Assembly: GCF_020382885.2 (NCBI RefSeq)
Contig: NC_058497.1
Span: 17,848,330-17,912,329 of the forward strand
Direction: 5' to 3'
DNA length: 64,000 nt
Source: Scatophagus argus
Taxonomy: Eukaryota > Chordata > Actinopteri > Scatophagidae
The notes under the pieces were generated by a model that was not told the origin of the DNA, did no database searches, and saw nothing but the letters and a program-made list of their open reading frames with translations. Both the position numbers and the translations under genes were made by a program. Below are positions 40,411 to 53,300 of this stretch, piece after piece. Each line of letters begins with the position of its first letter. Within the stretch, counting starts at the first letter, position 1.

Positions 40411-41577
40411 TTTTGAACTTTTTCATCACTGCCTGACCAACTCCAGACCTTTTTTTGCATAATTTGCCATGGACTAACTAACGAATAGGCCACACCTGAA
40501 GGTTGCAACTGCTTATTAGCCATTTTCCCATCATTTATGAACCACCATCTCCAAATCCTAAATGGTTAATGCCACACTTTTGTCAAACCCCTAGAATTAA
40601 AACTGAAAGTCTTCACTCACATTTTGGATGTTTCATTCCAAATTCAATTTTATGGCATACAACAACCAAATGCGAAAAAATTTAGAATTGTCAAGTGGGT
40701 ACTGAGGAGAAATATCAAATGAAGGAACTGAGATGTGTAAACATCATGACAATGCAAAATGTGTTAACACCTTCTTCCCTTATGTTATCACTTTCATAAA
40801 GAGTTAAGTTAGTCATATACTGTCAATCCTGCCCACTTACACACAAATTATGTAGGTTAAATACATATTGGGTTTTAACATGTAGACATGTATATACTGT
40901 ATAACCACCCACTTCATGTGTATGAAGTAATCTAATATAAATAATCCTATTAAATATCAATTTTTTGCACTATTTGCATTTGTTACAATCTTCTTCCAAC
41001 TTGTTTGTACCTCTATTTCTATTTTTAGATTCTTGTTAATTGTTCTCTGCGTAACTACACTGGAAGTAAAACAACAAGTCAAATTAAATCAATAACTTGA
41101 ATCTGATTCTGAAAAGCAGCAAAAGACATTGAAAAATCTTTGCAGTATCATCTATAGAGTTTTTGGCATTGAGACAAATAGCAAAATATCGTCCGCATAT
41201 AAAGCTCTTGAGTAACTATTATTCCCAGACTGATACCATAAATGTCAAAGTGAGTTCTAACCTCTGTATTTTTATGAACAAATAGTCATGTTGAGTCAGG
41301 ATACCCATGGCTGTTTGCTTTGACTCTAGAAGAAAATGGCGTATAAGTCATTATTCCACTAGCTCCAAATCATTTATTTCTCTTGCGGAAAGCAGTACCA
41401 TAGCTACACTATATCATCACATAGATTCAAAAATTACTTAAGTGACAGAAAAACTGTCCAGCACACTAGCATCCACTCCTATAAGCATTACAAAAGGGCA
41501 TGCTCAAACTGTCCAAAAAACATACAACAAATTTAAATGATGAAATGAATAGGGTATGTAATCCTATATTATGCATT
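40411..41577. other. Spacer sequence, unit 2
   Basis: No gene. A deletion relative to unit 1 falls at about 40690-40695. Confidence 0.5.
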
Positions 41578-41610
41578 ATGAAATGCATAAGCCTGGTGAT
41601 GTGGTTCTGG
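41578..41610 (+). other. 33-bp piece of V2R exon 1 at a deletion junction
   Basis: The 33 bases from ATGAAATGCATAAGCCTGG to GGTTCTGG are identical to the gene 6/gene 7 exon 1 segment that encodes the [10 protein letters not shown] region. Unit 1 has about 110 bp of unrelated sequence at the same place. It looks like a copied filler. Confidence 0.75.
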
Positions 41611-41796
41611 ACATTTGCAAACTTTCAAAAAATAAGCATGGGCTTTAATTTTCCCAAAAGGCAAAAAAAGGAAGATCACTGTTTATGTGCTTTACAAAAT
41701 ACATTTGATGACACACGTATTGATGTGCCACAGAGTTTTTTTATGTTATGTTATTATAATTAAGTTTGCATTGATATTATGTCTTTCCCCTATAGA

Positions 41797-41950
41797 ACAT
41801 GCCCTGATGAATGGTGTAAATGATGAAACAGTGATGGAAAACACTCAACATGGAGGACATAGCCATGCATGTAAAATGAAGTAGTGTTTGAAGAAGAGAA
41901 ACAAGTGTGTATCCAGGAGGGCAGTTATGGGAGCTTTATTTGGATCCATA
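41797..41950 (+). pseudogene. Orphan V2R promoter plus truncated exon 1, unit 2 copy
   Basis: This is paralogous to 33337-33540, with the same decayed promoter words and GGGCAGTTATGGGAGCTT. Here it is shorter, as the signal-peptide part after ATGGGAGCTTTATTTGGATC is cut off. Confidence 0.7.
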
Positions 41951-42727
41951 TTAACCTCATTTAATAAAGGCCATTTGGTGTGACTTAACAAATTTATGTA
42001 TTATATATTTTTCCAAGAATTAAGGAAAAAAAATCACCCAGTGTAGCCTTTTCAAAAGACAATCAAATTAATATAATATAATATAATTTTTTTTTTTTTA
42101 ATTAAAGATCAGTAAACCATACCTTTATTTCCAAATCATGCCTTTTGGAAAAAGGCAATTGGGGTATACTGCTTATTCAGTAAACTGAAATTTTTAACAT
42201 GCTCATGATGATGCCATAAGGACTCTAAAGTCTAGTGTACAAGAATTTTAGTGTCATTCCTGGTTAAAACATTTTAAGTACAGTATGATCCACACCTTTA
42301 AGCATCAAAAGAAGACTTTTTCAATTAGGCCAAAGACATGACACCTATATTAAGTTTTATTGAGAAAATTAAATCATGAGATGTGTCATGTTGAAAGAGT
42401 GAAAATAAAAATGAAAAAAGATTACAACTGATTACAATTCCCAGACCTTACGAAATGTATTTAAATAAATGTGTAATATTTTAAATATGGTACATGACTT
42501 ATTTTTACCAAAATTGTAGATTATGGTTTATGTGTTATTTCTTTCGTGAATATCATTCTTCATAATGAAGGCAAACATTTCACTTTAGGATAAAGAAAAA
42601 AACATAAATTTTAACTGAAGGGGGACTTTAATATAGCTAAGTTTATATGTGTACTGGCTGTGTTCTGCCACCATAGCCCTTACCCTCATGGGAGATGTGA
42701 AACAATACGGAAAGCGTGCAAGGGGAA
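41951..42727. other. Spacer upstream of gene 7
   Basis: AT-rich, no gene. A poly-T tract and TATAA repeats are near 42071-42100. Confidence 0.5.
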
Positions 42728-42750
42728 TGACATAGCCCTGCATATAAAAT
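42728..42750 (+). promoter_or_regulatory. Gene 7 proximal promoter module
   Basis: TGACATAG (42728-42735) and TATAAAAT (42743-42750), with the TATA box 59 bp before the ATG. Confidence 0.62.
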
Positions 42751-42801
42751 TAAGTAGCCTTGTATGAAGTACATAAGCAGGTGAAAAGGAAAAGGGCAGT
42801 T

Positions 42802-45800
42802 ATGGGAGCTTTTCTTGAACCATATATCTTACTCTGTGCCTACCATATCTTGTTTTTTCCCTTATTCACTACTTTATATTCGACATCTTCCTCTTTTCCA
42901 ACATCTTGTAAATTATGGAGAAAGTTTCATCTTAATGAAATGCATAAGCCTGGTGATGTGGTTCTGGGTGGGCTATTTGAGGTCCACTACACCTCTGTCT
43001 TTCCTGAGCGGACATATATTTCAGAGCCACAACAGCCAATCTGCAAAGGGTGAGTTCCACATACATTAAACATTGTGTATTGGTGAAAATTTGGCTGACT
43101 GCTTAGATTATTCATCATGTCGAAGAAAATGTCACTGTATCGAAATGCTGATGAGTTATGTACTTCTGACATTTATAGTGATACTTTTAAAGTACTAAGT
43201 ATAATATATTGCTGTAATGTGTAAATAAAGTTCAGTTTTTATATATACACTTACCCCTTTCCCACAATGCCTTGGTGCTTTTAGTAGTTGATAGTGATAT
43301 TTTTTGTGTTAGTTTTGATATTCTAGGGTTCAGACATGCCATGACCATGGCCTTTGCTATCGAGGAGATCAACAAGAATTCCAATCTGCTACCTAATGTG
43401 ACTCTGGGATACAGTCTTTATGATAACTGTGGTGCACTTGTTATTGGATTCAGTGGTGCATTATCACTGGCAAGTGGCCACGAGGAGCAGTTTCTGCACC
43501 ATCAAAACTGTTTGGGTACCCCTCCAGTCCTGGGGATTGTGGGTGATCACTATTCAACATTTTCTATTGCCGCCTCCAATGTTCTAGGTTTATACAGAAT
43601 GCCCATTGTAAGTTCCTTGTCTTTAATATGTTGCACTGTTGCCTTGTTATAATGTCATATAATGTCAGTCATATTTGAATTACCTTTATTTTTGAAAGTG
43701 ATATATTGTTAATCTAATTTGCATGAGATTAGTAAACTGTGTACATATGTTTCTTCATAGGTGAGTTATTTTGCCACATGTTCCTGCCTGAGTGATCGGG
43801 AACGGTTTCCATCCTTCTTTAGAACAATACCAAGTGATGCTTTTCAGGTGAAAACAAAATTAAAATCAAAATGAAATGCTGCAACAAAATGTAAATATAT
43901 GTGTGTGTGTTTATAGTAAAGGTTAAATATATATGCTGTATATATTTAACTTTTACAATTTACACTAATTTAAGTTAGTTATATATGTCACATAATACAC
44001 TTATCTGTGCAATAATCCTTTCACACCAATATATCTACTTAGGTGCATGCTATGATTCAGATTCTAAAACACTTTGGATGGACTTGGGTAGGCCTGCTGG
44101 TCAGTGATGATGACTACGGACTCCATGTTTCCCAGTCCTTCCAGTCTGACCTGCTTCAGTCTGGTGGAGGTTGTTTGGCCTATTTAAAGGTATTGCCCTG
44201 GGACAGTGACCCAGCTGAACTCAGGAGGATTGTACATTTGATGAAGACATCAACAGCTCATGTGGTCATGGTGTTTGCACATGAAATACACATGATTCAA
44301 CTAATGGAAGAGGTTAGAATTAAAATGTGATATCATTTTGAAATCAATAATCAATGACAAAGGGAATTTTACAACAAACCAAAGTTTGTTGTATAAGCAT
44401 CCATTATGTAATTTTAGAATGCCCAAGTCACTAATTTTGAATGAAAAAAAACAGCTGTGCTTATGTATCTCAATTTATACTAAGTCATCCTTTTTTAAAA
44501 TTATTATTATTATTGCATTCACTTATTTTACATTACATATTTTCAATTAATTGAAATTACTTTGTCGAAATCTGGTATCACTTTGACGTTAAGGAAGATT
44601 TTTTGGAATTTCTTGTCAAAAATAAAGCGAAATTATACTGACACTGATTCCATTGATAAAAGCAATGAAAGGGGAAAACATCCAAGAGGGTGCATACTTT
44701 TTACAGGCACTATATTTTTGAGACTGTTGTCTCATCTGTGTGTTTAAATATCTGGCTCACTGACTTGAGTCACAGTGCTTATCACAGTGCACAAATCTCA
44801 TTGGCTGAATACCATCACGTGAAATGATTTACAACACATGCAGTTGGTCTGTGAGTATACTTGGCTACTGGGGCAGTAAATTCTCAGTAATTTCTCAGTT
44901 ATGGGTTGCTATGTTGATGCTATGTTCAGGTGGTGAGGCAGAATGTGACAGGCCTGCAGTGGATAGTAAGTGAAGCCTTAACAACAGCCACTGTGCTCCA
45001 AACACCTCACCTCATGCCGTACCTGGGTGGCACACTGGGTATCGCCATCCGTCGAGGAGAAATACCAGGCCTCAGGAAATTCCTCTCAAATATACGTCCT
45101 GACCAAAATGTCAACTATGGAAATAGCATGGTAAAAGTTTAACATTACCATTTGATCTACAAATTATGAGAATAATATATGTAAATTTATGTTAATGCAA
45201 ACTCTAATATATTTCAGGTGAGGCAGTTTTGGGAATACACGTTTCAGTGTAAATTTGATCCGGCAGATTTGCCAGAAGCTGGTGGAGCATTTTGCACTGG
45301 ACAGGAAGATATTGAAAAATTGGAGACTGAGTTTTTGGATATTTCTAACCTTAGGCCTGAATACAATGTTTACAAAGCTGTGTATGCTCTTGCTTATGCA
45401 CTAAATGACATGCTGCAGTGCGAGCCAGTAAGAGGTCCTTTCATGAGGCACAGCTGTGCCACTTTGCAAACACTGGAGCCATGGCAGGTGAGCTATCAAT
45501 TGATGCTCCACCTGTTTATATGGGGTGTAAATATGTTTAAACATAAATGTTTGTACATAAATAATAAATAATTTTGCTTATTTTTGTTTGACAGAGTCAA
45601 ATACACTCTATCTTTAATTATTTCTGTCATCTATATGAAGGTGGTATATTATTTGCAATAGGTCAACTACACAATACAACATTCGGTGATCAAGTGTCAT
45701 TTGATGAGAATTGTGATGCCTTTCACGTGTACTATGCAATTTGATCACTGAAATAAGTACTGCTGTGTCATATATAATTGTTTCTTAATCTGTCCTCTTT

Positions 45801-47261
45801 GGTTTTTCTCTATTTGTTATTCTGATATTCATATATAGCTAGTTTATTACTTGGAAAAGGTCAACTTTACCACATCATTTGGTGATCAAGTGTCATTTGA
45901 TGAGAATGGTGATGCCTTACCAATATATGATATTATGAACTGGCTGTGGCTCCCTGATGGAACAACTAAACTTCAGAATGTGGGTGAAGTTAAGAAATCA
46001 GCCATCAAAGGTGAAGAACTCACAATTGATGAAGATAAAATCTTCTGGAACTTTGAAGCAAGCAAGGTTATTTTTGCTTTTTCTGACATCTTAAATTATA
46101 GACTGGCAGTGGACAGTAATAGAGAGTGACAGCTTAATTTTTATCCTTACAGCCACCCCGGTCAGTGTGCAGTGAGAGCTGTCCACCAGGTACCCGTGTG
46201 GCCAGAAAGAAAGGGGAACCTGTGTGCTGCTTTGACTGCATCCCTTGTTCTGAGGGAAAGATCAGCAATGACACTGGTTGGTATTGAACATTGCAGTTTA
46301 GAAATAAAACATAAATGTGTATCTCAAGAATATTGCTCTTTTCATAGACTCCATGGAGTGCACCAGTTGTCCAGAGGACTTCTGGCCCAGTCTCCAGCGT
46401 GACCACTGTGTTCCTAAGGAAACAGAATTTCTCTCCTACCATGAACCTCTGGGTATCTGCTTGACAACCACCTCATTGTTGGGCACATGTATCTGTGCTG
46501 TTGTCCTGGGCATTTTCATCTATCATCACAGAACACCTATAGTACGTGCCAACAATTCAGAGCTGAGTTTCTTGCTTTTGGTGTCTCTTAAACTATGCTT
46601 CCTTTGCTCATTGCTGTTTATTGGCCACCCAAGGCTATGGACATGCCAGCTGAGACATGCAGCATTTGGGATCAGCTTTGTGCTTTCTGTCTCATGTATT
46701 CTGGTAAAAACTATGGTGGTTCTGGCTGTGTTCAAGGCCTCCAAGCCAGGAGGTGGAGCCATTCTTAAGTGGTTTGGTGCTATGCAGCAGAGAGGGACAG
46801 TTTTAGCTCTTACTTGTGCTCAGGCAGCAATCTGCACTTCTTGGATTGTATTTGCCTCCCCAGTTCCTCATAAAAACACTCAATACCACAATGATAAGAT
46901 TGTTTATGAGTGTGCAATTGGGTCCACAGTTGGTTTTGCAGTGTTACTGGGTTACATTGGCTTACTGGCTATTCTTAGCTTTGTGTTAGCATTTCTAGCA
47001 AGGAACCTTCCAGACAACTTCAATGAGGCCAAACTCATCACTTTCAGCATGCTGATCTTCTGTGCTGTGTGGGTGGCCTTTGTCCCTGCTTACATCAACT
47101 CTCCAGGTAAATATGCAGATGCAGTGGAGGTATTTGCCATCCTGGCCTCCAGTTTTGGCCTCTTGATAGCATTGTTTATACCCAAATGTTACATAATCCT
47201 GCTGAGACCAGAGAGGAACACAAAGAAAGCGATTATGGGTCGAGACATAAAAAAATCATAG
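42802..47261 (+). CDS. Gene 7: V2R/OlfC olfactory receptor, B/C chimera, intact, 878 aa
   Basis: Coding exons: 42802-43049, 43313-43607, 43761-43847, 44043-44312, 44930-45130, 45218-45487, 45839-46066, 46153-46276, 46348-47261 (TAG). Exons 1-6 are type B ([30 protein letters not shown]). From the seventh exon on, the sequence is type C/A-like ([35 protein letters not shown]), and the introns also match genes 8 and 9. A dead type B copy of exon 7 remains at 45641-45720. The pocket residues remain; the SEAW position reads VSEALT. In helix 7 GPKCY is replaced by IPKCY, and the tail is GRDIKKS. The frame is fully open and the splice sites are sound, so it is a hybrid receptor with a B ligand domain on a C-type membrane domain. 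Confidence 0.9.
44500..44719 (+). mobile_element. Possible Tc1/mariner-like terminal fragment in intron 4 of gene 7
   Basis: The tract ends GAGGGTGCATACTTTTTACAGGCACT, resembling the terminal inverted repeat of fish Tc1-like elements (...GGTGTGAATACTTTTGCAAGGCACTGT). The opposite end and the transposase are not present. Identification is from memory of the terminal motif, so it is tentative. Confidence 0.5.
45641..45720 (+). pseudogene. Dead partial type B exon (seventh coding exon) in gene 7
   Basis: TATTATTTGCAATAGGTCAAC ... GGTGATCAAGTGTCATTTGA aligns with the first about 80 bases of the type B exon that begins in genes 5 and 6 at 27886 and 36929. An in-frame TAG replaces the second Gln of LQQ, and small insertions have accumulated. 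It ends abruptly at GATGCC, after which the sequence is type C intron. Confidence 0.8.
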
Positions 47262-50332: not shown

Positions 50333-53300
50333 ATGTGGGCATTTTTAGGGATCAACATGCTCTTGCACATGCATTTCATGTTGTATCCCTACTTTCTTCC
50401 AGCTGTGCCCTCTCCTCTTTCTTCCTCCTCCTGTCAATTACAGAAACACTTCTACTTAAATGGAATGCACAAAGCTGGAGATGTGGTTCTAGGTGGGCTG
50501 TTTGAGACCCATTTCTTTTCTGTCATTCCTGACCTGTCTTTTACCTCAGAACCACAACAGCCCATCTGCCACAGGTGAGTCTGTCAGGGGGGGCGGCAAA
50601 GTGAGGAAATGTATTTCTCATAATAATATTTTACTCGGAAGAATGGCATTGAGTATTTATGCCAATTTAAGTATATTGCTTCTCTGGACTGTTTTATGAT
50701 AAATGTATTATAATAATTGTTGCTATTTAACTGATGCAGTGGTTTGCAAAATCTATAGTTGTATATACATGTCATACATGTTGTCATACACGTACTGTAT
50801 GTATGTATGTGTACGTGTGTTCACACAGTTTGTGTATCATGCCGTGTTTCTCAGTTGTAAATAGGAATATTTTTTTATGTTAGTTTTGATGTTTTAGGAT
50901 TCAGACAGGCACAGACCATGGCCTTTGCTATTGATGAGATCAACAGAAACTCCAACCTGCTACCTAATGTGACTCTGGGATACAGTCTTTATGATAACTG
51001 TGTCAGCATAGGAATTGGATTTCGCGCAGCATTGTCCTTAGTCAGTGGTCAAGAGGAGCAGTTTATGTTAGACGAGACCTGTGTTGGAACCCCTCCAGTA
51101 GTGGGGATTGTGGGTGATTCTTCATCCACTCGTTCTATTGCCATCTCCAGTGTCTTAGGTTTGTACAGAGTGCCCATGGTAAGTTTTACACTTTACCATC
51201 TAATGATGATTTTATATAGTCTTGGTTTACTTTCAGATATAATGTCAGTTGTAAACATGATATAATTAACCTTAACAAAATCAAAGGTGTGAAATCTTTA
51301 CAAGATGTAAAGTCTCTTTCTTTGATAGGTGAGTTATTTTGCCACATGTTCCTGTTTGAGTGACCGGCAAAAGTTTCCATCCTTCTTCAGGACAATACCA
51401 AGTGATGCTTTCCAGGTGACCAAATATCAGCAAAAGGAAAATGCATGAAATAAAGCATGCGCAGTTATTCCTCAAAGAGAATGTTGCTTTTCTGCAATGA
51501 AAAATACATATCTGTATTTATATCCCTGTTGTGTAATACCAGTCACATTTTTTTTCCCACTGATGGGATTGTTTGGCCTTCCAGAAAGGCAATACTTAAA
51601 CATCCATTCAAGGTCCATTGTTAAACCTGTTGAGCAGGTTTTCCACAGAAAGGTGGAAACTAATCCTTTCACGGTCTGTTCACTCAGGTGCATGCTATGA
51701 TTCAGATTCTAAAACACTTTGGCTGGACTTGGGTTGGCCTGTTGATCAGTGATGATGACTATGGACTTCATGCTGCACGATCGTTCCAATCTGACCTGGT
51801 TCAGTCTGGTCGAGGTTGTCTGGCATATTTGGAGGTTTTACCTTGGGGCAATGACCAAGATGAAATAAGGAGGATTGTGGATGTGATGAAGAAATCTACA
51901 GCTCGTGTGGTCATTGTGTTTGCACATGAGAGTCACATGATTAACCTGATGGAAGAGGTTGGACATTAAATAAAACTCATAATAAATAGATTGTAACTTG
52001 CTATTGTGATAAAAGTAAACATATTTTGTCATTATGAATTTATATAACTATTATCATGCACATGACTGCGTTTCATTGCATTGTACTTGTACATGTGTAA
52101 TGACAATAAAGTTGAATCTAATCTAATCTAATTTAATCACAGGTGGTGAGGCAGAATGTGACAGGCCTGCAGTGGATGGCCAGTGAAGCTTGGACAGCAG
52201 CTACTGTGCTCCACACTCCCCACCTCACGCCATACCTGGCTGGCACACTGGGTATCGCCATCCGTCGAGGAGAAATCCCAGACCTCAGGGAATTCCTCTT
52301 ACAAACACGTCCTGACCTACACAACAACAACAGCTATGGAAACAGCATGGTGAGAATTTAAACATGCAATCTGATCAAGTAATTGAAGGAATTAAATGGT
52401 CACAATTTATAACACAGTATGTTGAAAATATATTCATTGTATTTTGCATATATTTCAGGTAAACCAGTTTTGGGAATACACATTTCAGTGTAAATTTGCA
52501 CCACTTCCAGCAGATTGGGTAGATGCTGGGGGAGCATTGTGCACTGGACAGGAAGATCTAGAAGATGTGGATAATGAGTTTCTGGACATCTCAAACCTCA
52601 GGCCAGAGTACAATGTGTACAAGGCTGTGTATGCACTGGCATATGCTCTTGATGACATGCTGCGCTGTGTGCCAGGCAGAGAGCCTTTCAGAGGACACAG
52701 CTGTGGGAGTTTGAAAGAACTGGAGCCATGGCAGGTATGATATCATTTCACACTGCACTTGTATTTGAGACTAAATTGTATGTTCTTGTATTTCTTGGAG
52801 AGTGACTTTTAGAGTACAGGAATAAATACAATGCAATAAGTTAACTAATTTTGAAGTGCCAAGCAAATGGCTGAAATGATTTGTCCTAGTGCTGGGTAAT
52901 TGCAGTGATCAGCAATTTCAGGTCAGTGATACATTCACATCTTCATATATTCAAGTGTGGTATGCAGTTTGATTAATGAAATAAGTGCTGTTGTGCCATT
53001 TATAATTGTTTCTTAATCTGTTCTCTTTGGTTTTTCTCTATCCGTTATTCTGATATTCATTTAGCTAGTGCATTACTTGGAAAAGGTGAACTTCACTACA
53101 TCATTTGGTGATCAAGTGTCATTTGATGAGAATGGTGATGCCTTACCAATATATGATATCATGAACTGGCTGTGGCTCCCTGATGGAACAATTAAAGTTC
53201 AGAATGTGGGTGAAGTTAAGAAGTCAGCCTTCAATAATGAAGAACTCACAATTGATGCAGACAAAATCTTCTGGAACTTTGAATTCAAAAAGGTTACTAA

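Follow-up and report, generated by a model that had tools for sequence, protein, structure and literature searches.

Gene conversion was detected with GENECONV in subfamily 9 of the OlfC (V2R) receptor genes of the channel catfish, according to the available text of that report (PMC6588630). For tandem arrays more generally, chimeric paralogues are reported, with unequal crossing over, conversion and end joining as the routes by which they arose. The OlfC genes of zebrafish are described, in the available text of the source, as six-exon genes whose intron phases are strictly conserved (PMC1764893). A literature search yielded, among the matches listed, neither a fossil exon in V2R genes nor extra introns in V2R exon 3.

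The gene considered here, gene 7 (g7), lies in a stretch of 64,000 nucleotides of Scatophagus argus DNA (contig NC_058497.1, positions 17,848,330 to 17,912,329; the window, whose numbering is used below) and belongs to a tandem cluster with about 97 full-length 7tm_3 matches on C5 at 17.38–18.06 Mb. By its predicted domains (ANF_receptor 81–482, NCD3G 525–578 and 7tm_3 593–844, in that order and all above the curated cut-offs), it is a V2R/OlfC-type class C receptor gene. A search of solved structures gave the calcium-sensing receptor CaSR as the best match and no molecule named as a V2R in the best 60 of 183 rows. The order of ligand domain, cysteine-rich domain and 7TM domain is shared with zebrafish OlfC genes, whereas the six exons described there stand against nine in 34 genes here (PMC1764893). 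Nine exons are found in all 34 annotated genes of the subfamily of g7, in which three introns interrupt the long ligand-domain exon. The difference was taken to reflect a change in gene structure within the lineage; the protein family is defined by the domains. The last three exons of g7 (about 228, 124 and 914 bp) resemble canonical OlfC exons 4–6. Pairwise dN/dS of g7 against B and C genes is 0.13–0.30 (exons 4 and 6, exons 7 and 8, and exon 9; an average over both lineages), and the gene is apparently under constraint.

Array genes were compared by sub-type, 24 C genes against 10 others (A, B, U and z0). The features of g7 are as follows, with the exon 1/2 boundary placed by eye to within a few codons.

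42802–47261, plus strand: gene 7, nine exons, open
40500–43440, plus strand: upstream region and on through exon 1 and intron 1 into exon 2; near-copy of gene 6 (g6)
42802–43049, plus strand: exon 1, B type, signal-peptide-like start; 99% identical to g6 over 118 bp
43343–43607, plus strand: exon 2, B type, its 3' half more distant from g6; start placed only roughly (similarity from 43327)
43680–43847, plus strand: end of intron 2 and exon 3 (43761–43847); closest to upstream genes u1/u2, not to B or C
44043–44312, plus strand: exon 4, B type; tree support with B 99/93
44313–44929, plus strand: intron 4, unlike the other introns 4 compared (best z 2.2; a gap in the HSPs)
44930–45130, plus strand: exon 5; identity leans to C, tree weakly to B
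45218–45487, plus strand: exon 6, B type; tree support with B 100/99
45488–45640, plus strand: first part of intron 6, most B-like
45641–45720, plus strand: remnant, the first 80 bp of a dead B-like exon 7; acceptor AG at 45639–45640 kept
45720–45722, plus strand: junction placed from alignments, at most 2 nt of shared sequence
45722–45838, plus strand: final 117 bp of an intron 6 of C type; gene 8 (g8) is closest
45839–46066, plus strand: intact exon 7, end of the ligand domain; not B, assigned to C through the linked introns 6 and 8
46153–46276, plus strand: exon 8, cysteine-rich domain; C-like, also z0-like
46277–46347, plus strand: intron 8, C type
46348–46590, plus strand: 5' part of exon 9, weakly C; tree support with C 93/84
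46591–47261, plus strand: remaining part of exon 9, with most of the 7TM domain; equal dS to every group, no sub-type favoured

Taken together, these features are, with moderate confidence, best accounted for by a B-lineage gene that would carry a bounded patch from a C neighbour, from 45722 to about 46590. As in the catfish, the case concerns an exchange between paralogues of the same receptor family; however, the exchange in catfish was, in the available text, inferred statistically from alignments, whereas g7 retains an intronic remnant and a junction at which two local sub-types are joined (PMC6588630).

The 5' part of the gene is largely B. Trees of exons 1–2, exon 4 and exon 6 place g7 with B, and the AU test rejects a grouping with C (p 0.0027, 0.0128 and 0.001, respectively). 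A first-pass annotation of this DNA had assigned exons 1–6 to type B throughout, which is borne out for these exons but not for exon 3, which leans to U, nor for exon 5; for the latter, identity pointed to a C patch, but the tree gave no backing and the candidate was dropped. The single breakpoint of that annotation is likewise too simple: the end of intron 2 leans to U together with exon 3, and intron 4 resembles none of those compared (introns longer than 1500 bp being represented by their last 700 only). Moreover, from the upstream region to the middle of exon 2, g7 is much closer to g6 than in the rest of the gene. Over 40500–43380 (40500 being the start of the upstream comparison), 35 of 49 sliding windows are at least 94% identical to g6 and the other 14 are 76–93% identical, which suggests a recent copy in either direction.

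Within intron 6, the predicted 80-bp dead exon was confirmed. It can be aligned with the exon 7 of each of the nine full genes in the window, that of g7 itself among them, and carries an in-frame TAG at 45659–45661 and a 2-nt insertion. Since E values against exon 7 copies go down to 1e-22, similarity by chance is ruled out. A scan of the plus strand of 244 kb at E 1e-4 turned up three exon fragments outside exons and no other exon-7 remnant; the remainder of a B-type exon 7 was sought outside exons and not found, and its first 80 bp are still present. As had been proposed, the remnant is B-like and may be assigned to the B lineage. It is identical to each of three B genes at 69 of 78 positions, against a mean of 66.6 for the 24 C genes, carries the B base at three of five sites informative between B and C, and groups with B in the tree (87/87). 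Nevertheless, its top-scoring match is the C gene g20, which at 69/78 equals B. The AU test rejects remnant and C as a clade (p 0.003), but this is uninformative, as C is not one clade there and U genes fall inside it. The intron sequence before the remnant is also most B-like (45488–45640; z 10.5, 5.1 and 4.0 to g4, g5 and g6), with a best C value of 5.6 and three of 24 C introns reaching z 5. With an array-trained matrix, the remnant acceptor scores 7.4 and that of the real exon 7 scores 8.3, which is about equal, so the silence of the remnant is not demonstrable from its acceptor. Splicing into this acceptor would hit the stop at 45659.

Directly behind the remnant, C-type sequence begins. 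The breakpoint, earlier put near 45720–45728, was placed at 45720–45722 by alignment, and the predicted likeness of the following intron to gene 8 near 52960 was found at 52950–53063 (88% over 114 bp). This part of intron 6 reaches z 50.7 to g8; for it as well as for intron 8, 23 of the 24 C genes are at z of at least 5, a value reached by no gene among the 10 from A, B, U and z0. By these matches, intron 6 from 45722 and intron 8 are of C origin. Intron 7 gave best z values of 5.1 to B, 5.1 to C and 3.9 to z0. The claim that g7 mixes B and C material and that a stranded exon marks the join is thus upheld by the AU tests on exons 1–2, 4 and 6 and by introns 6 and 8. A maximum-descent recombination test gave a positive outcome for g7 with each of the 18 parent pairs tried, a result that is not specific, because eight of nine control genes were positive too (p < 0.01).

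Unequal crossing over of a B gene with a C gene, with the B 5' part fused to a C 3' part at 45720 and the intervening DNA deleted, would likewise leave a single sharp junction followed by C sequence, intron 8 included, and in the array g7 sits right at the border of the B and C blocks. Exon 9 is where the two explanations part. Here, g7 matches nine of 20 C-private sites, namely none of two at 46352–46353, six of seven at 46393–46583, one of nine at 46688–47102 and both at 47251 and 47255. The contrast of 6/7 with 1/9 has a p value of 0.009 for a split chosen after the data were seen, and B-private bases (1/5 before 46590 and 4/6 after) are too few for a test. Because the first two C-private sites are non-C and the last two are C, a patch would be without clean edges in this exon. 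The left flank of the C tract is clearly a join to the B side; the right flank is suggestive of recipient sequence. The AU test does not reject g7 with B for the first 245 bp of the exon (p 0.146) or with C for the remainder (p 0.40), the latter, like the last two C-private sites, being compatible with a crossover. Against it stand the eight of nine sites at 46688–47102 without the C-private base and the 3' flank of g7, which has no match at E 1e-5 among the 33 other array genes, whereas 24 of 24 C-gene 3' flanks match another C gene, each with at least two partners. The silence of the flank alone is weak, because the 3' flank of g2A likewise matches nothing. A crossover would require a later conversion of exon 9 and a replacement of the flank, and we consider it rather unlikely. 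The bounded patch fits better, even if its right boundary falls short of proof. Exons 7–9 had been taken as type C, which holds for exons 7 and 8 through introns 6 and 8, but exon 9 is not C throughout. The proposed new pairing, of a ligand domain of type B and a membrane domain of type C, was not borne out: exon 9 is equidistant from the sub-types (mean identity 87.2–87.7%), with dS of 0.35–0.43 to all groups in its 3' part.

Another explanation dispenses with any exchange in exons 7–8: g7 would have retained ancestral exons while B diverged, and the remnant would be a small local accident. The coding sequence leaves some room for this. Exon 7 has no C-private sites, g7 lacks the single one in exon 8, and the amino acids of exon 8 are identical to those of z0. 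A coding-only phylogeny of exons 7–8 was tried as proof of C origin and is insufficient, as the AU test does not reject g7 with B (p 0.37); its rejection of g7 and C as a clade (p 0.023) is uninformative, since U genes fall inside C. Separate phylogenies for the parts of the gene, as the first-pass annotation had suggested, therefore settle exons 1–2, 4 and 6, but for exons 7–8 the introns and the remnant carry the case. Divergence nevertheless points away from B: exon 7 has two of 25 B-private bases and dS of 0.24 to C and 0.77 to B, exon 8 has none of six and a mean identity to C of 96.2%, and the mean synonymous divergence of g7 over both exons is 0.185 to C, 0.637 to B, 0.70 to A, 0.38 to U and 0.28 to z0. 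In a native exon 7, B-private bases would be expected to be common, but exons 7–8 have 2/31, against 33/51 in exons 1–6 (Fisher p 1.3e-7). The C origin of exons 7–8 is argued from the linked introns 6 and 8, which match C genes and none of the 10 others, and the B bases in the remnant imply that a B-type exon 7 was already present. Retention of ancestral exons is thus very unlikely.

Alternatively, the remnant could have arisen when part of exon 7 of g7 itself was duplicated in tandem. It adjoins that exon and is identical to it at 66 of 78 positions, and the AU test does not reject the pairing (p 0.36). However, the sequence 5' of the remnant is most like a B intron and holds no copy of the C intron that precedes exon 7, and all five informative B bases are absent from the intact exon 7, against three present in the remnant, which makes a duplication highly improbable. 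Tandem arrays are prone to misassembly, but a misjoin of a B and a C gene is hardly credible, as it would give near-identity, whereas every 120-base window of the C tract differs from all other genes (83–98% identity to the nearest C) and the remnant bears mutations of its own.

Under the bounded patch, a break in g7's own exon 7 would have been repaired with a C gene, probably a precursor of g8, as the template. On the left side, C sequence (117 bp from the end of intron 6, followed by exons 7 and 8 and by intron 8) would have been joined to the broken B exon, and because this join had almost no homology, the first 80 bp of the native exon would have been stranded in the intron. On the right side, resident sequence would resume within exon 9, at about 46590. 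Splicing would then run from exon 6 to the C exon 7 with the remnant skipped. As had been predicted, this keeps the frame, because both exons meet in phase 0, and the joined coding sequence has 868 codons without an internal stop. In the protein, the patch would comprise residues 448 to about 643, with the sub-type changed at the end of the ligand domain, in the cysteine-rich domain and perhaps in TM1 and part of TM2.

The functional reach of the exchange is probably small. Little is newly paired, because the protein of the main part of exon 9 is 86–90% identical to every sub-type, and its first 80 residues are 82–87% identical. With the chimeras reported from tandem arrays, as far as the available text of those reports describes them, g7 shares a new exon combination as the outcome; unlike them, it comes with no claim of a new function, and its right boundary is placed only tentatively. 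It is a well-preserved case of a known route of array change and not a new mechanism. A wider reading, which we regard as quite unlikely, is that the array diversifies by short cassettes, consisting of the end of the ligand domain and the cysteine-rich domain, that would be moved between sub-types via homology-poor repair. If this were true, the part that couples ligand and membrane domains would evolve independently of ligand choice, and the remnant in g7 would be a frozen trace of it. As a warning, trees built from whole receptors or from the 7TM exon only can misplace genes in such arrays. For the chemoreceptor array itself, g7 would offer a readable junction of break repair, where exchange is usually inferred from alignments.

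The window corresponds to C5:17848330–17912329. Gene 7 (g7; 42802–47261, plus strand), a nine-exon V2R/OlfC-type class C receptor gene, belongs to a large tandem cluster of such genes, with about 97 full-length 7tm_3 matches at C5 17.38–18.06 Mb (domain search, counted by hand). In the genome searched (~571 Mb, 48 contigs), exon 9 was found at ≥87% identity in at least 35 places, g7 included, with 40 of 105 candidates scored. Annotated were 34 genes within 244 kb (17818330–18062329) and one outlier, z0 (L035), which together make up these 35 places. The 34 genes were given the local group names U (u0–u2, upstream, with u2 extending into the first bases of the window), A (g1–g3), B (g4–g6), g7 and C (g8–g31, 24 genes). 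The joined g7 protein has 868 codons without internal stops and carries ANF_receptor, NCD3G and 7tm_3 domains, the same set as V2R/OlfC receptors; its closest solved structures are calcium-sensing receptors.

The first-pass annotation had described g7 as B-type ligand-domain exons 1–6 joined to C-type exons 7–9, with a dead 80-bp B exon at the join. This remnant (45641–45720) was confirmed upstream of the intact exon 7 (45839–46066): it retains the acceptor AG, has an in-frame TAG at 45659–45661 and carries a 2-nt insertion. A search of the 244 kb (E 1e-4) detected three plus-strand exon fragments outside exons, of which the remnant is one. Its host intron and the other two fragments are:

45488–45838, plus strand, g7 intron 6
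41578–41610, plus strand, 33-bp exon 1 piece (fragment search, E 1e-4)
C5:17986548–17986601 (window-based 138219–138272), plus strand, exon 9 tail piece (fragment search, E 1e-4)

Ten minus-strand fragment matches were located at both ends of the 244 kb, amid genes or gene pieces belonging to other subfamilies. The exon 9 tail piece listed above is likewise an exon remnant: 45 bp, 98% identical to the end of exon 9 in g18, isolated upstream of gene 21.

In whole-genome searches with intron 6, query bases 117–233 matched g6 (83%) and g5 (82%), bases 131–233 matched g4 (83%) and bases 235–348 matched g8 (88%). As the remnant makes up query bases 154–233, the sequence preceding it was compared separately, using alignment z-scores against base-shuffled sequence, which differed slightly between two runs and serve as a rough ranking only. 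This preceding stretch (45488–45640) was closest to B introns (z 10.5, 5.1 and 4.0); z exceeded 5 in 3 of 24 C introns and in none from A, U or z0. From 45722 onwards, the intron scored z ≥5 to 23 of 24 C introns and to none of the 10 others, with g8 on top (50.7), so that the proposed C-type intron stretch resembling g8 held. At the join, at most 2 nt are common to both parents.

The sub-type of the remnant itself is less clear-cut. Five sites differ between B and C. The remnant agrees with B at three of them and with C (as well as A and U) at one, and has a base of its own at the fifth; the intact exon 7 of g7 agrees with B at none. Identity is 69 of 78 bases to each B gene and on average 66.6 to C genes, with the C gene g20 equalling the B genes (69/78) and giving the best single match in the fragment search. 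A tree places the remnant within B (support 87/87), and pairing it with the intact g7 exon 7 was not rejected by the AU topology test (p 0.36). Considered jointly with the intron sequence next to it, the remnant is better read as B, if not beyond doubt.

Exons 7 and 8 are closer to C (91.8% and 96.2%) than to B (82.5% and 86.8%). However, these identities mostly reflect a divergent B group, because bases private to C are nearly nil (none in exon 7; one in exon 8, absent from g7), whereas 25 and 6 are private to B, of which g7 has two and none. In the coding phylogeny of exons 7–8, g7+B was not rejected (AU p 0.37). A C origin is instead argued by synonymous divergence across exons 7–8 (0.185 to C versus 0.28–0.70 to other groups) and by introns 6 and 8, each of which has counterparts in 23 of the 24 C genes but in none of the 10 others; intron 7 was undecided. 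The contrast in B-private bases is strong, with 33 of 51 in exons 1–6 versus 2 of 31 in exons 7–8 (Fisher p 1.3e-7).

Exon 9 (46348–47261) could not be upheld as C-type. Its mean identity is alike to all groups (U 87.2, A 87.6, B 87.6, C 87.7), and it has the C base at 9 of 20 C-private sites, distributed as 0/2 at 46352–46353, 6/7 at 46393–46583, 1/9 at 46688–47102 and 2/2 at 47251 and 47255. B-private sites number 11, and g7 has the B base at 1/5 before 46590 and 4/6 after; where to divide exon 9 was decided post hoc, on data already seen. In trees, g7 adjoins C over the first 245 bp (93/84) and falls outside C over the remainder, where AU does not reject g7+C (p 0.40). The 1200-bp 3′ flank of g7 matched none of 33 other genes at E 1e-5; all 24 C genes matched another C gene, and besides g7 only g2A was without a match. 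In the 250 bp past the stop, z was 3.7 for the best C gene, 0.6 for g4 and 5.8 for g1A. With moderate confidence, the C patch stops within exon 9.

The assignment of exons 1–6 to B held in part. Exons 1–2, 4 and 6 cluster with B, and g7+C was rejected (AU p 0.0027, 0.0128 and 0.001, respectively), but exon 3 with the end of intron 2 is closest to u1/u2, and exon 5 is undecided. Intron 4 (44313–44929) is longer than in B genes and resembles none of the introns 4 it was compared with. Over 40500–43440, a stretch ending midway through exon 2, g7 is ≥94% identical to g6 in 35 of 49 sliding windows, exceeding the rest of the gene, which suggests a recent exchange or duplication including the upstream region. 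The 33-bp piece upstream of g7 reproduces part of exon 1 without mismatch and may be a small templated insertion; g6 differs at that place. Overall, g7 looks like a mosaic from several exchanges of differing ages, of which the join in intron 6 is one.

Exons 6 and 7 meet in phase 0, and the reading frame is therefore preserved, as had been proposed. In pairwise comparisons with B and C genes, dN/dS of g7 was 0.13–0.30 (exons 4+6, 7+8 and 9) and 0.40–0.51 (exon 5), which, as an average across both lineages, suggests constraint. The patch would run from residue 448 to ~643, taking in the final 35 residues matched by ANF_receptor, the cysteine-rich domain and, with TM positions judged by eye, approximately TM1 and some of TM2. 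The residues that align with the pocket in which the calcium-sensing receptor binds amino acids are in exons 2–5, B-type or undecided, so that g7 would be expected to choose ligands largely as the B lineage does, and the proposed new pairing with a C membrane domain was not sustained.

In channel catfish, OlfC genes are reported to undergo gene conversion (PMC6588630), and tandem duplication has been named as the chief mode of expansion (PMC1764893, PMC1601972). A search of titles and abstract beginnings found no fossil exon at a V2R junction.

In all 34 genes, the long ligand-domain exon is cut by three phase-0 introns (e.g., window 43761–45487), in g7 at residues ~200, ~290 and ~357, whereas zebrafish OlfC genes have this region as a single exon. 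In L017 (C5:17818330–17828329), a gene on the minus strand is apparently cut at two other places (~272 and ~371), and at least eight genes at C5:17.38–17.53 Mb hold >220 ANF_receptor positions inside one stop-free stretch. These differing cut sites and uncut stretches suggest repeated, independent intron gain inside a single receptor cluster, which may be more unusual than the patch in g7.
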